Assembly (NCBI RefSeq): GCF_020405205.1
Contig: NZ_CP084469.1
Coordinates: forward strand, 806,001-870,000
DNA length: 64,000 nt
Reading direction: 5' to 3'
From: Natrinema salinisoli
GTDB lineage: Archaea > Halobacteriota > Halobacteria > Halobacteriales > Natrialbaceae
Shown here: positions 7,533 to 11,781 of the stretch, piece after piece
Layout of the letters: every line of letters begins with the position of its first letter
How positions within the stretch are numbered: position 1 is the stretch's first letter
Program-made: the position numbers and the translations under genes
The notes under the pieces: generated by a model
Databases searched by the model: none
The model's input: the letters and a program-made list of their open reading frames with translations, nothing else
Told to the model about the DNA's origin: nothing

Positions 7533-8858
7533 ATGGGGATGCGGCGCTGGGTGGAGTACGATACGATGCGCGATACTCGAACGAACGTAGACAGACGGGA
7601 TGTGTTACGGTTGGTCGGCGCTGGTACGGTAGCCACCGCGAGTCCAATCGGCGTCAGCGAGACGGGACGCGCGGCCGAGCAGGAGGACAGCTACCGGAAT
7701 CCGACGGGACCGATCGGGTTCGGCGACGTGAGCGTCGTCCGGACCTGCGACGGCACCTACTACGCGTACGGAACGGAAACGCCCGAGGACGTGGTCCCGA
7801 TCGCCAGATCGACGGATCTCGTGAACTGGACCTACGTCGGGTCGGCACTCGAGCGGCACCCGGACTGGCGGGACGATCCCGACGCGGGGGTGTGGGCACC
7901 GTCGGTCGCCGAGTACGACGGTGAGTACCACTTGTACTACTCCTACTCGACCTGGGGGAGCCAGGACAATCCCGGGATCGGGCTCGCGACCGCGTCGGAT
8001 CCCGAGGGACCGTTCACCGATCGGGGGTCGGTGTTCCGCGCTGCGGACCTCGGGATGACGAACGCCATCGACGGCGAGCTGGTGGTCGTCGACGACACGC
8101 CGTATATGGTCTGGGGAAGCTGGTACGGCATCTACGGCGTCGAGTTGACCCCCGACGCCGCGGACTACGTTCCCGGGACGGCGTTCCACATGGCCGGTGA
8201 CAAGAAGGAAGGGCCGATGATACTCGAGGAGAACGGGTATTACTACCTATTCTATTCGACGGGACACTGCTGTGACGGTGCCGACAGCACGTACGAGGTC
8301 GCAGTCGGCCGTTCGGAGTCGTTTTTCGGCCCCTACGAGAACCAGCGCGGGGAGGATCTCCGCGAGTTGAACGCCCATCACGAAGGCGTCGCCGTGCTTT
8401 CGGGAACCGAGGAGTTCGTCGGGCCGGGCCACAACACGGCGATCCAGGACGACGAAGGCGACTGGTGGATGGTGTACCACGTCGAAGCCACCGCGGACCG
8501 AGAAGTGCGCGCGCTCATGGTCGATCCGATTCGGTGGGACGACGACGGGTGGCCGATCGTTGGCGACGATGGAACGCCGAGCGCCGAGTGGTCGGTTCCC
8601 CCGGCAGGCGCGGACCGGTGTGGCGATACCGGCGACGGCGACACTGTTGCAGTCGGCGACTACGAGGCCCGCGACCTTGACGACGACGGTCGCTACGAGG
8701 ACGTCACCGGCGACGGGACGACCACCCACGCGGACGTCAACGCCTTCTTCGAACACCTCGAGTCCGACGGCGTCCGGAAGAACCCCGAGAAATTCGACTT
8801 CGACGGCAACGGCCGCGTCGGGTTCGCGGACGTCCTCGAACTGCTCCGAGAGATCTGA
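7533..8858 (+). CDS. Exported GH43 arabinanase-like hydrolase with C-terminal dockerin-like module
   Basis: Predicted to hydrolyse alpha-1,5-arabinan or a related arabinose-containing polysaccharide outside the cell. A twin-arginine signal (DRRDVLRLVGAG) covers about residues 20-47. The five-bladed GH43 domain spans about 55-360. Its catalytic set is visible: base Asp65 (FGDVSV), pKa-modulating Asp180 (NAIDGELV), acid Glu226 (KKEGPM), and the GPGHN loop with His300 as in endo-arabinanases. Residues 372-441 form a dockerin-like pair of Asp-rich loops (DLDDDGRYED and DFDGNGRVGFADV). ATG 7533 fits a TATA box 26 bases upstream; ATG 7566 gives a more usual signal-peptide length and is the alternative. 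It precedes another dockerin-bearing polysaccharide enzyme and shares an upstream element with the lactonase gene. Confidence 0.8.
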   Translation: MGMRRWVEYDTMRDTRTNVDRRDVLRLVGAGTVATASPIGVSETGRAAEQEDSYRNPTGPIGFGDVSVVRTCDGTYYAYGTETPEDVVPIARSTDLVNWTYVGSALERHPDWRDDPDAGVWAPSVAEYDGEYHLYYSYSTWGSQDNPGIGLATASDPEGPFTDRGSVFRAADLGMTNAIDGELVVVDDTPYMVWGSWYGIYGVELTPDAADYVPGTAFHMAGDKKEGPMILEENGYYYLFYSTGHCCDGADSTYEVAVGRSESFFGPYENQRGEDLRELNAHHEGVAVLSGTEEFVGPGHNTAIQDDEGDWWMVYHVEATADREVRALMVDPIRWDDDGWPIVGDDGTPSAEWSVPPAGADRCGDTGDGDTVAVGDYEARDLDDDGRYEDVTGDGTTTHADVNAFFEHLESDGVRKNPEKFDFDGNGRVGFADVLELLREI

Positions 8859-9073
8859 TCGACGGTCCGTCGTGGGACCGTGGTGACGTGACTCGACTAA
8901 AGCCGGCCATCTTCTCGAGAACGCAGTCGACGAGTCGTTCGTCGAACGATTTAGCGGTCGAGCGATCTGTGGACTGGAACTGTTGGCAATCGAACTAATG
9001 GTCTCTTGAGTGTTCGGCCTGTATATTTATTTAACTTTTAAGAAGAGGAAAAATTATCATTTTGAAGAATTGT

Positions 9074-9085
9074 TTTTATAATATG
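9074..9085 (+). promoter_or_regulatory. TATA box of the pectate-lyase-like gene
   Basis: TTTATAATAT at 9075-9084 is centred about 29 bases before the ATG at 9109 and ends an AT-rich stretch (9020-9085). This predicts an independent leaderless transcript rather than read-through from the GH43 gene. Confidence 0.5.
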
Positions 9086-9108
9086 GGCGTATAGTATTCC
9101 GAGTCTTC

Positions 9109-11781
9109 ATGACAGATCACGATAGGCGGACGTTCCTACGATTGGTCGGCGCGAGCGGGGTCGGTATAGCGGCGACGGGGCCCGGCTCGGCCGCGGCGTC
9201 GAGTGACGGATCGGTCACGGCCGGCGGTGCGGACATCTGGAACCGGACCGACGAGTTCCACTACCTCTTTACCGACGTCAGCGGCGATTTCGACGTTACG
9301 GTACGGGTAGACAGTCTCGAAGAAACGGATCCGTACGCAAAGGCGGGACTCATGCTTCGCGAGTCACTGGCGGCCGACGCTGCGAACGTGATGGTCCGCA
9401 GGGCTCCGGACCACACCACCGTTCAGTGGCGGCCGGAAACGGGTAGCGAGGCTGGCAGTCTCACGTCCGACCTGGGCGAAGATTTGAGCGAGGTCTCGGG
9501 TGGCACGATGGAGGGCCGGTACCAACGACTCGTCCGCCGTGGCGACACCGTCACGGCGTACGGCTCATCCGACGGGACCGACTGGACCCGAATGGTCCAG
9601 CTTTCGGAAGCGGACCACGACCTGCCCGAAACGGGCTACATCGGACTAGCCGTCACGAGTCACAGTACGGGCACGCCGTGTACGGCGGCATTCTCCGAAC
9701 TGAGCGGCACGACGCCGACCCACAGTCGGGACGTCGGCGACGTCGACGTTGACGGAAGCGCCAGTTGGAACGGCGCCTCGATCAACGACGGGCCGCTCGC
9801 AGCGACGGGACCGGCGTCGGCGCTGACGGAATCCTCGATGACTCTGAGCGGGTCGCTCGATCACCTCGGCACCGACGCCTCGATCCAGGTGGCTTTCGAG
9901 TACCGCGAGCGCGGCGCCTCGTCCTGGTCTCGGACGGACGCGGAAACGATCTCCTCGCGTGGCGAGTTCAGTCGGGACGTCTCCGATCTGTCCACGAATA
10001 CCGAGTACGAGTACCGCGCAGTGGCGGTCGACGGTGACGGCGACCGGGTCGTGGGATCGACGGCGACGGTCACGACGCTCCGTCGCGATACCGATCCGTC
10101 GATCAGTACCGGCCCGGCGACTGAGCAGAGCGCCTCGACGGCGACCCTCTCCGGGACCCTCGAGTCGATCGGCGGCCAGGCCAGTTCCGCGCTGGTTTCG
10201 TTCGAGTATCGGGAAGTCGACGGCGACGAGTGGCAATCCTCGGGAAGCCTGACGCGCTCGGAACCGGGCGAGTTCGAGCAGACCGTCTACGGACTCTCGC
10301 CCGCGACGGACTACGAGTTCCGCGCGACGGTCGAAGCCGACGACGGCGATACCGACATCGGTTCCACGGTAACGGTCCGAACCGACTCGGGCGTCGACAC
10401 CGACGCCGGGTCGTACTTCGATCCCGAGGACGGGTTCGCGGACGTTGACTGGTTCGACGACGAGGTCCAGGTCATCAGGATACAGGAACTGGATCTGGAC
10501 GTTATCCAGGAAGCGTTCCAGACTGAGGGACCGCGCCTGATCGTCTTCGAAGCGAGCGGCGTCCTCGACATGGATAGTGCGCAACTCGAGATCACGGAGC
10601 CTAACTGCTGGGTCGCCGGGCAGACGGCGCCGTCGCCGGGCGTCACCTTCATCGACGGGTTCGTTCAGGTCGACGCCGACGACGTCGTGGTCGAGCACAT
10701 CCGCGTCCTGCGTGGGGACCAGAGCGGAGGCGAAGGGACGGACCCGATGAACAGCGCCGATGGGACGGCGAACGTGATTTTCAGTCACTGCACATCCTTC
10801 TGGGGTCGCGACGAGAACCTCTCGGTCGGGTACGATTCCGACCGGACCACCTTCGCGAACTGTCTGATCGCGGAGGGGCTCGAGGATCCCGAGGAGAACT
10901 CCAACGGGACGCTGGTCGGTAACGGCGCGAAGAACGTCGCGATCATGGGGACCGTTTACGCGAAGAACAACGACCGAAACCCGCGTCTGAAAGCCGACAC
11001 GGAAACCGTCGTGGTCAACGGACTCAACTTTTACCACGACAAGGCCATCTGGATCGATGGTGGTGCCGAGGCGGCCGTCGTCGGCAACGCCTACATCCAC
11101 CGCTTCAGCTTCAGAGACCCGCTCGTCTTCGGTGACGGGAGCGTCTATTTCGAGGACAACTACGTCGCGGATCCGCCCCTGAACGGGCGGCCGTTCCAGA
11201 ACGTCGGGACCGAACTGGAGTCGCCGCCGCTGTGGCCGGACGGACTCGAGGCGATGCCCGCTGGCGACGTCGAGAGCCATAATCTCACCTTCGCCGGCGC
11301 GCGGCCGGCCGATCGGATCGGACAGGAGGAGAAGGTCGTCCGGCAGATCCGCGACCGGTGGGGCGACCTGGACGTGGATCCGAATCGAGACAATGCCGGA
11401 TTCTCGGACATTCCCGACAGTGCGGCGGAAGCGGGTGGGTACCCTGACCACGGAGGCACCACGCACACCCTGGAGGTTCCCGAATCCGGACTGCGCGAGT
11501 GGCTCCGCCGGAAGGCCGTAGAAGTAGAGGTCGGCGACGAAAACGACGGTGACGCCGGCCCCGATACGATCTTTGTCGGCGACTACGAGGCACGGGATCC
11601 GGATGATGACGGCCGCTACGAGGACGTCAACGGAGACGAGACGACCACCCACGGCGACGTCAATGCCCTCTTCGAGAACCGGGACGCCGATGGCGTTCAG
11701 AACAATCCAGACCCCTTCGACTTCGACGAAAACGGCCGATTCGGCTTCTCGGACATCCCCGAACTGCTTCGAGAGATCTGA
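9109..11781 (+). CDS. Exported multidomain pectate-lyase-like protein with dockerin-like module
   Basis: An 890-residue exported protein that probably cleaves pectin. A twin-arginine signal (DRRTFLRLVGAS) is followed by a concanavalin-like/DUF1349-type domain (about 36-200). Two fibronectin-III-like repeats follow (about 230-325 and 340-430), each with the YEYRA or YEFRA strand. A PL1-type right-handed beta-helix then occupies about 445-770. There, TFIDGFVQVDADDVVVEHI and VIFSHCTSFWGRDENLS are typical of pectate lyases, as is the NDRNPRLKAD arginine region. Residues 815-890 form a dockerin-like module about 70 percent identical to that of the GH43 neighbour. No cohesin is seen in the window. 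Pectate versus another uronan as substrate is inference. Confidence 0.78.
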   Translation: MTDHDRRTFLRLVGASGVGIAATGPGSAAASSDGSVTAGGADIWNRTDEFHYLFTDVSGDFDVTVRVDSLEETDPYAKAGLMLRESLAADAANVMVRRAPDHTTVQWRPETGSEAGSLTSDLGEDLSEVSGGTMEGRYQRLVRRGDTVTAYGSSDGTDWTRMVQLSEADHDLPETGYIGLAVTSHSTGTPCTAAFSELSGTTPTHSRDVGDVDVDGSASWNGASINDGPLAATGPASALTESSMTLSGSLDHLGTDASIQVAFEYRERGASSWSRTDAETISSRGEFSRDVSDLSTNTEYEYRAVAVDGDGDRVVGSTATVTTLRRDTDPSISTGPATEQSASTATLSGTLESIGGQASSALVSFEYREVDGDEWQSSGSLTRSEPGEFEQTVYGLSPATDYEFRATVEADDGDTDIGSTVTVRTDSGVDTDAGSYFDPEDGFADVDWFDDEVQVIRIQELDLDVIQEAFQTEGPRLIVFEASGVLDMDSAQLEITEPNCWVAGQTAPSPGVTFIDGFVQVDADDVVVEHIRVLRGDQSGGEGTDPMNSADGTANVIFSHCTSFWGRDENLSVGYDSDRTTFANCLIAEGLEDPEENSNGTLVGNGAKNVAIMGTVYAKNNDRNPRLKADTETVVVNGLNFYHDKAIWIDGGAEAAVVGNAYIHRFSFRDPLVFGDGSVYFEDNYVADPPLNGRPFQNVGTELESPPLWPDGLEAMPAGDVESHNLTFAGARPADRIGQEEKVVRQIRDRWGDLDVDPNRDNAGFSDIPDSAAEAGGYPDHGGTTHTLEVPESGLREWLRRKAVEVEVGDENDGDAGPDTIFVGDYEARDPDDDGRYEDVNGDETTTHGDVNALFENRDADGVQNNPDPFDFDENGRFGFSDIPELLREI

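Follow-up and report, generated by a model that had tools for sequence, protein, structure and literature searches.

Candidate dockerin tails on two exported polysaccharidases and a putative cellulosome-like system in the haloarchaeon Natrinema salinisoli

A survey published in 2010 found cellulosome components in no archaeal genome (PMC2838879). Multi-cohesin proteins have since been described in anaerobic methanotrophic (ANME) archaea, in a report that, citing Peer et al. 2009, describes earlier archaea as lacking multi-cohesin scaffoldins (PMC9012536). For the haloarchaea, the archaeal mechanisms of insoluble polysaccharide degradation have been called almost unknown, in a paper that mentions neither cohesins nor dockerins (PMC10267330). 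A description of the GH5/GH10 cluster of Natronoglomus mannanivorans gives the dockerin a role in substrate binding, with no mention of a cohesin (PMC10963439), and a further paper repeats this assignment (PMC13260240). We found no description of haloarchaeal cohesins in the openly searchable literature, a result that is provisional since subscription papers and preprints lay outside the search. Here we analyse a 64,000-nucleotide stretch of the Natrinema salinisoli genome (NZ_CP084469.1, positions 806,001 to 870,000; hereafter the window), in which two neighbouring genes encode exported polysaccharide enzymes, a glycoside hydrolase family 43 (GH43) protein and a pectate-lyase-like protein, that share a C-terminal tail. 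The tails are probably archaeal dockerins through which exported polysaccharidases attach to cohesins of the same genome, forming a small cellulosome-like system.

Sequence and predicted fold of the tails

The two tails align without gaps over their last 72 residues, with 72% amino acid identity and 78% DNA identity. The BLOSUM62 score of the pair is 284, compared with a maximum of 75 among 1000 shuffles, which rules out a chance likeness. Recent duplication of one gene is likewise ruled out, since the likeness is confined to the tails and the two catalytic domains have no relationship to each other. Each tail contains two 12-residue loops, with the patterns D-V-T/N-G-D-x-T-T-T-H-x-D and D-F-D-x-N-G-R-x-G-F-x-D, and both loops have Asp at positions 1 and 12. 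Asp at loop position 12 is a dockerin trait, ordinary EF-hands having Glu at this position. The tails thus depart from the ordinary EF-hand pattern of helix-loop-helix with Glu at position 12: all have Asp at 12, and the modelled tail lacks the entering helix. Across 18 tails from three species the residues D21, D25, D32, D53, D55 and D64 are invariant, as is His30.

The genome encodes six such tails in total, two in the window and four on GH5 enzymes, and all are carried by exported polysaccharide enzymes (four GH5, one GH43 and one pectate lyase). Five of the six exceed the 22.9-bit cut-off of the Pfam Dockerin_1 family (PF00404) in a six-frame search; when the whole GH43 protein is scanned its tail scores 22.6 bits. 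A sequence profile of the tail matches the CelS dockerin (E 6.6e-5) and also matches calcium-binding EF-hand proteins.

The AlphaFold2 model of the tail (pLDDT 96.8) has a loop-helix, loop-helix arrangement, or F-hand, in which helices at residues 30-38 and 62-71 follow the loops. There is no helix before the first loop, and a hairpin is present at the N-terminus. All 22 rows returned by VIA for this model are dockerin chains, the best with a Z of 6.1 over 56 residues (2.7 Å). The ten best Foldseek matches are also dockerins, but with poor E-values (best 0.28). No solved carbohydrate-binding module (CBM) is present among the Foldseek or VIA matches of the tail model. The assignment of the tails as dockerins is thus supported by both sequence and predicted structure.

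This agrees with the original prediction, made from the letters of the window, which had read the tails as dockerin-like and whose open reading frames (ORFs), tail coordinates and motif prove correct; its estimate by eye of about 70 percent identity is close to the computed value. It had also proposed comparison with the Pfam dockerin family, whose cut-off all tails but that of the pectate-lyase-like protein exceed in the six-frame search, and a search for further proteins with the tail, which yields the four GH5 enzymes.

The window proteins (Table 1) both start with a Tat-type RR signal motif. The GH43 protein matches PF04616 with an E-value of 1.4e-59, and its nearest NCBI models are endo-arabinanases (NdoAlphArabAbnA); translation could begin equally well at a downstream ATG, at 7566. 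In the 890-residue protein the DUF1349 and FN3-like segments precede the pectate lyase domain.

Table 1. Features of the window and of the scaffold gene at the second locus. Window positions are counted from its first letter.
Feature	Position	Strand	Basis
Tat-exported GH43 (endo-arabinanase-like) enzyme with C-terminal dockerin, 441 aa	7533..8858	+	ORF; PF04616; NdoAlphArabAbnA
GH43 catalytic domain, residues 54-341	7692..8555	+	PF04616
Dockerin tail of GH43 protein, 72 residues	8640..8855	+	PF00404 26.7 bits, over cut-off (six-frame search); tail alignment
GH43 tail, first Ca loop DVTGDGTTTHAD	8700..8735	+	Asp at 1, 5, 12; His at usual recognition position 10
GH43 tail, second Ca loop DFDGNGRVGFAD	8796..8831	+	Asp at 1, 3, 12
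Tat-exported pectate-lyase-like enzyme with DUF1349, FN3-like domains and C-terminal dockerin, 890 aa	9109..11781	+	ORF; domain scans
Pectate lyase domain, residues 464-806	10498..11526	+	NCBIfam NF041900 PelZ E 1.5e-50; PDB 9buj E 5.4e-10
Dockerin tail of pectate-lyase-like protein, 72 residues	11563..11778	+	PF00404 16.1 bits, under cut-off; tail alignment
Pectate-lyase-like tail, first Ca loop DVNGDETTTHGD	11623..11658	+	Sequence
Pectate-lyase-like tail, second Ca loop DFDENGRFGFSD	11719..11754	+	Sequence
835-aa two-cohesin scaffold protein	C1:2,975,861-2,978,368	-	Directly downstream of cluster's first GH5 gene

Cohesin partners at a second locus

No cohesin is encoded within the window, and cohesin searches of the genome match only outside it. 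The partner candidates lie in a cluster at C1:2.969-2.980 Mb, where the four tail-bearing GH5 enzymes (tails spanning C1:2,968,956-2,978,618) flank an 835-residue scaffold protein. This protein is composed of a Tat signal, a first cohesin (residues 51-190), an FN3 domain, a second cohesin (283-423), three further FN3 domains, a CBM5/12-like segment and a PKD domain. Adjoining it is a 240-residue protein with a Tat signal, a single cohesin and a PGF-CTERM-like C-terminus, and the genome also has a gene for archaeosortase A (ArtA; 318 bits). Two more cohesin-like proteins are found at C1:3,855,884 and C1:4,054,677. At a distance of about 4.7 kb from the cluster of tail-bearing GH5 genes lies an exported esterase/S9-like hydrolase (748 aa, L018:2036-4282) that lacks a dockerin tail.

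Since the Pfam Cohesin scores were marginal, we tested the cohesin fold by modelling. The AlphaFold2 model of the orthologous domain from Natrinema salsiterrestre, which is 96% identical to the N. salinisoli domain, has a pLDDT of 92. Cohesins occupy the first 45 ranks of its Foldseek matches (5lxv_A, E 2.6e-9), and VIA gives a Z of 15.0 to 4ums (132 residues) and 14.6 to the Clostridium thermocellum cohesin of complex 1ohz, most of the VIA matches being cohesins. The sequence profile independently matches the R. flavefaciens ScaC cohesin (E 0.0056).

Distribution of tails and cohesins in haloarchaea

We searched 392 genomes of the order with both the tail and the cohesin profile. The tail is present in 165 genomes and the cohesin in 131; 125 have both, 40 the tail only, 6 the cohesin only and 221 neither. 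This corresponds to an odds ratio of 115, compared with 1.8 for the tail with GH5 as a comparison trait. Judged by this comparison with GH5 rather than by a full phylogenetic correction, phylogeny alone is rejected as the source of the association, since GH5 is a similar kind of trait in these genomes and yet reaches an odds ratio of only 1.8. Among the 30 genomes with at least three GH5 enzymes, 20 have both tail and cohesin, two the tail only, none the cohesin only and eight neither.

The scaffold gene lies within a tail-enzyme cluster in N. salinisoli (G000), in its congeners N. salsiterrestre (G338) and N. ejinorense (G255), in Halopiger goleimassiliensis (G140) and in genomes G211, G350, G179, G122 and G399, and the protein has two or three cohesins in each of them. 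A phylogeny of 94 cohesins places the N-terminal scaffold cohesins in one group (100/98), and the other scaffold cohesins together with the anchored cohesins of Natrinema's family in a second (95/86). As judged from these sequences, the two groups suggest two specificities. A dockerin tree was used to look for specificity classes. Its enzyme dockerins group according to genome, as do 16 of G365, those of PhoX-type phosphatases fall together (100/95) and scaffold dockerins do not; its 68 columns are too few to resolve more. N. salsiterrestre has the scaffold, and its GH43 homologue retains the tail. The homologue in G055 is 66% identical to the window protein and ends right after the catalytic domain without a tail, and profile searches find neither tail nor scaffold cohesins in that genome.

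Other species have richer architectures, with canonical tiers in G265 and G365. The tail-rich genome G365, of the same family, encodes an 1801-residue protein (L128:2975-8377) that joins a GH5 cellulase domain to eight cohesins and on its predicted domains is a catalytic scaffoldin, and a 278-residue PGF-CTERM-like cohesin protein adjoins it. In G265 a protein with five cohesins and a C-terminal dockerin adjoins a 241-residue cohesin protein ending in a hydrophobic segment, a predicted transmembrane anchor, and the cohesin of this anchor groups apart from those of the scaffold in the 94-cohesin tree. G003, taken as Halococcoides cellulosivorans HArcel1, has several multi-cohesin proteins (L130, L131, L132, L133) and at least 15 dockerin matches; the domain combinations include two cohesins with a dockerin, three cohesins with a dockerin, and two cohesins with a PGF-CTERM-like tail.

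The same modules also occur with other proteins. G061 and G166 encode proteins with three cohesins and a dockerin near dockerin-tailed 3-keto-disaccharide hydrolase/GSDH proteins (L067, L068, L135), an arrangement of tailed proteins and adaptors that appears to be a use of the same docking system outside the glycoside hydrolases. A unit widespread in haloarchaea comprises a PhoX-type phosphatase ending in a cohesin and a dockerin (L051:822-3186; L095:1348-3393; similar loci), next to a gene for a single-cohesin protein of about 260 residues with a hydrophobic or PGF-like C-terminal tail. This unit suggests display of the phosphatase on the cell surface through cohesin and dockerin.

Haloarchaea thus appear to build cellulosome-like enzyme complexes. 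We consider it likely, with rather less assurance than for the N. salinisoli system itself, that they hold a widespread and independent branch of true cellulosomes, aerobic, adapted to extreme salt and sometimes multi-tiered (enzyme, adaptor scaffold, anchored cohesin), that has been overlooked because the Pfam scores of its cohesins are close to the threshold or under it. H. cellulosivorans, a cellulose specialist, would use one of these.

Proposed assembly, alternatives and known systems

The observed genes, domains, predicted folds, gene order and co-occurrence lead us to infer the following assembly. The tails of the exported polysaccharidases would bind, presumably in a calcium-dependent manner, to the cohesins encoded at the second locus. 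The Tat-exported scaffoldin, with cohesins of two clades, four FN3 spacers, and CBM5/12-like and PKD modules, would form a complex by gathering up to two enzymes on the substrate. Archaeosortase A could anchor the PGF-CTERM-like end of the 240-residue protein on the cell surface, where it would display single enzymes. A single tail family is common to the predicted pectin and arabinan enzymes of the window and to the four GH5 enzymes, which would therefore either be rivals for the same cohesins or be mixed on them. The system would benefit polysaccharide use. Two traits of cellulosomes are recognizable in the predicted genes, namely a scaffold with two cohesins and several glycan-active enzymes with dockerins. 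On its genes and predicted folds the system would work like a small cellulosome and is a candidate member of the cellulosomes.

Several observations weigh against this assembly. Some of the key modules score poorly: the tail of the pectate-lyase-like protein (16.1 bits) is below the Pfam dockerin cut-off, the CBM5/12-like segment reaches 20.9 bits (cut-off 26.2) and the PGF-CTERM match of the 240-residue protein 13.8 bits (cut-off 24.5). The second scaffold cohesin has 26.2 bits against PF00963 (cut-off 24.1) in the six-frame search and is unlisted in hmmscan. The predicted structures are of single chains, tail and cohesin, rather than of a complex, and the window genes lie about 2.15 Mb from the scaffold gene. 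The genomes in the co-occurrence count are related and so not phylogenetically independent, and the PhoX unit, having both domains, supplies many of those scored as having both. The correlation is also not strict, since G211 and G350 have scaffolds, yet their GH43 homologues align without a tail. Lastly, cohesin searches found no clear cohesin in G119 and G143, two cellulase-rich genomes of one genus with 7 and 5 tails, respectively, and many GH5 enzymes. The partners in these two genomes are either lost or divergent.

The tail might instead be a calcium-stabilized C-terminal cap or linker without a partner, its likeness to dockerins merely reflecting EF-hand chemistry. Acidic calcium-loop modules fit a high-salt environment, and the weak Foldseek E-values and the many tails kept by G119 and G143 are consistent with this idea. 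It is difficult to reconcile with loops that end in Asp12 and lack an entering helix, as in the dockerin F-hand, where EF-hands have Glu12; with the presence of the tail on unrelated enzymes while the homologous G055 GH43 is complete without it; or with cohesins that co-occur with the tail and are encoded inside the same clusters. We therefore regard a cap or linker as improbable. Still less credible is that the tail binds polysaccharide directly, as proposed for the Natronoglomus GH26 and a haloarchaeal glycosaminoglycan lyase: the available text of the two papers stating this (PMC10963439, PMC13260240) gives no binding data, the loops show no obvious aromatic platform for binding, one and the same tail is found on enzymes for arabinan, pectin and beta-glucans/mannans, and solved CBMs are absent from the fold matches. 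A more serious competitor, though on balance an unlikely one, is that the tails dock mainly onto surface-anchored single cohesins, with the two-cohesin protein being minor or free and not a complex-forming scaffold. The cluster does contain a single-cohesin PGF-CTERM-like protein, a single anchored cohesin beside one dockerin enzyme (PhoX) is the commonest haloarchaeal arrangement seen, and the Natrinema scaffold lacks a dockerin by which it could itself be held at the cell. Against this, a scaffold with two or three cohesins is kept in every GH5-tail cluster examined in the family, whereas the anchored cohesin is not, and up to eight cohesins are found elsewhere.

The reading of the tails as dockerins for cohesins of the same genome is thus the one we favour. 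The original prediction had correctly reported the absence of cohesins from the window and proposed looking for them in the rest of the genome, where the two-cohesin scaffold and the single-cohesin protein were found inside the GH5 cluster. Its suggestion of docking, possibly to a partner at the cell surface, gains support from these two proteins, the latter probably surface-anchored. The calcium-stabilized anchor that it offered as an alternative is disfavoured by co-occurrence and gene order, and the plain EF-hand stabilizer that it envisaged as an outcome of structural modelling differs from the model obtained, a dockerin F-hand with Asp12 and no entering helix.

A cohesin-dockerin system on cellulases would provide a concrete, testable mechanism for haloarchaeal breakdown of insoluble polysaccharides and add archaea that live aerobically in near-saturated brine to the organisms with assembly of the cellulosome type. 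It would also offer salt-stable plug-and-socket parts, and reinterpret published dockerin tails that have been named substrate-binding. In the N. mannanivorans cluster (PMC10963439), an 815-residue 'Dockerin/PKD' protein and a 258-residue membrane 'S-layer glycoprotein' resemble, by size only, the scaffold and the anchored cohesin.

The archaeal cohesin fold is shared with the cohesin-dockerin pair of Archaeoglobus fulgidus (2xdh, VIA Z 14.7). The title given to that pair calls it non-cellulosomal, and it has no known part in assembling polysaccharidases, whereas here the genes for the enzymes lie beside that of a multi-cohesin scaffold. The ANME archaea have proteins with up to five cohesins and a dockerin, but the common dockerin partners there are substrate-binding proteins of transporters rather than plant-polysaccharide enzymes (PMC9012536). 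A parallel in organization is the clostridial cellulosome (CipA/OlpB/SdbA of C. thermocellum), which likewise has enzymes with C-terminal dockerins and a multi-cohesin scaffold with spacer and CBM-like modules, and whose single-cohesin surface protein would correspond to the 240-residue protein. The haloarchaeal system differs in belonging to an aerobic extreme halophile, in Tat export, in its very acidic modules and in its predicted PGF-CTERM/archaeosortase-type instead of SLH anchoring. Natrinema has only two or three cohesins, and its dockerins have an N-terminal hairpin, an extra DxDxDG stretch and His/Phe at the usual recognition positions. G265 resembles the clostridial system further in its scaffold dockerin and separate anchor-cohesin clade, the distinct grouping of anchor and scaffold cohesins recalling the clostridial division into type I and type II.

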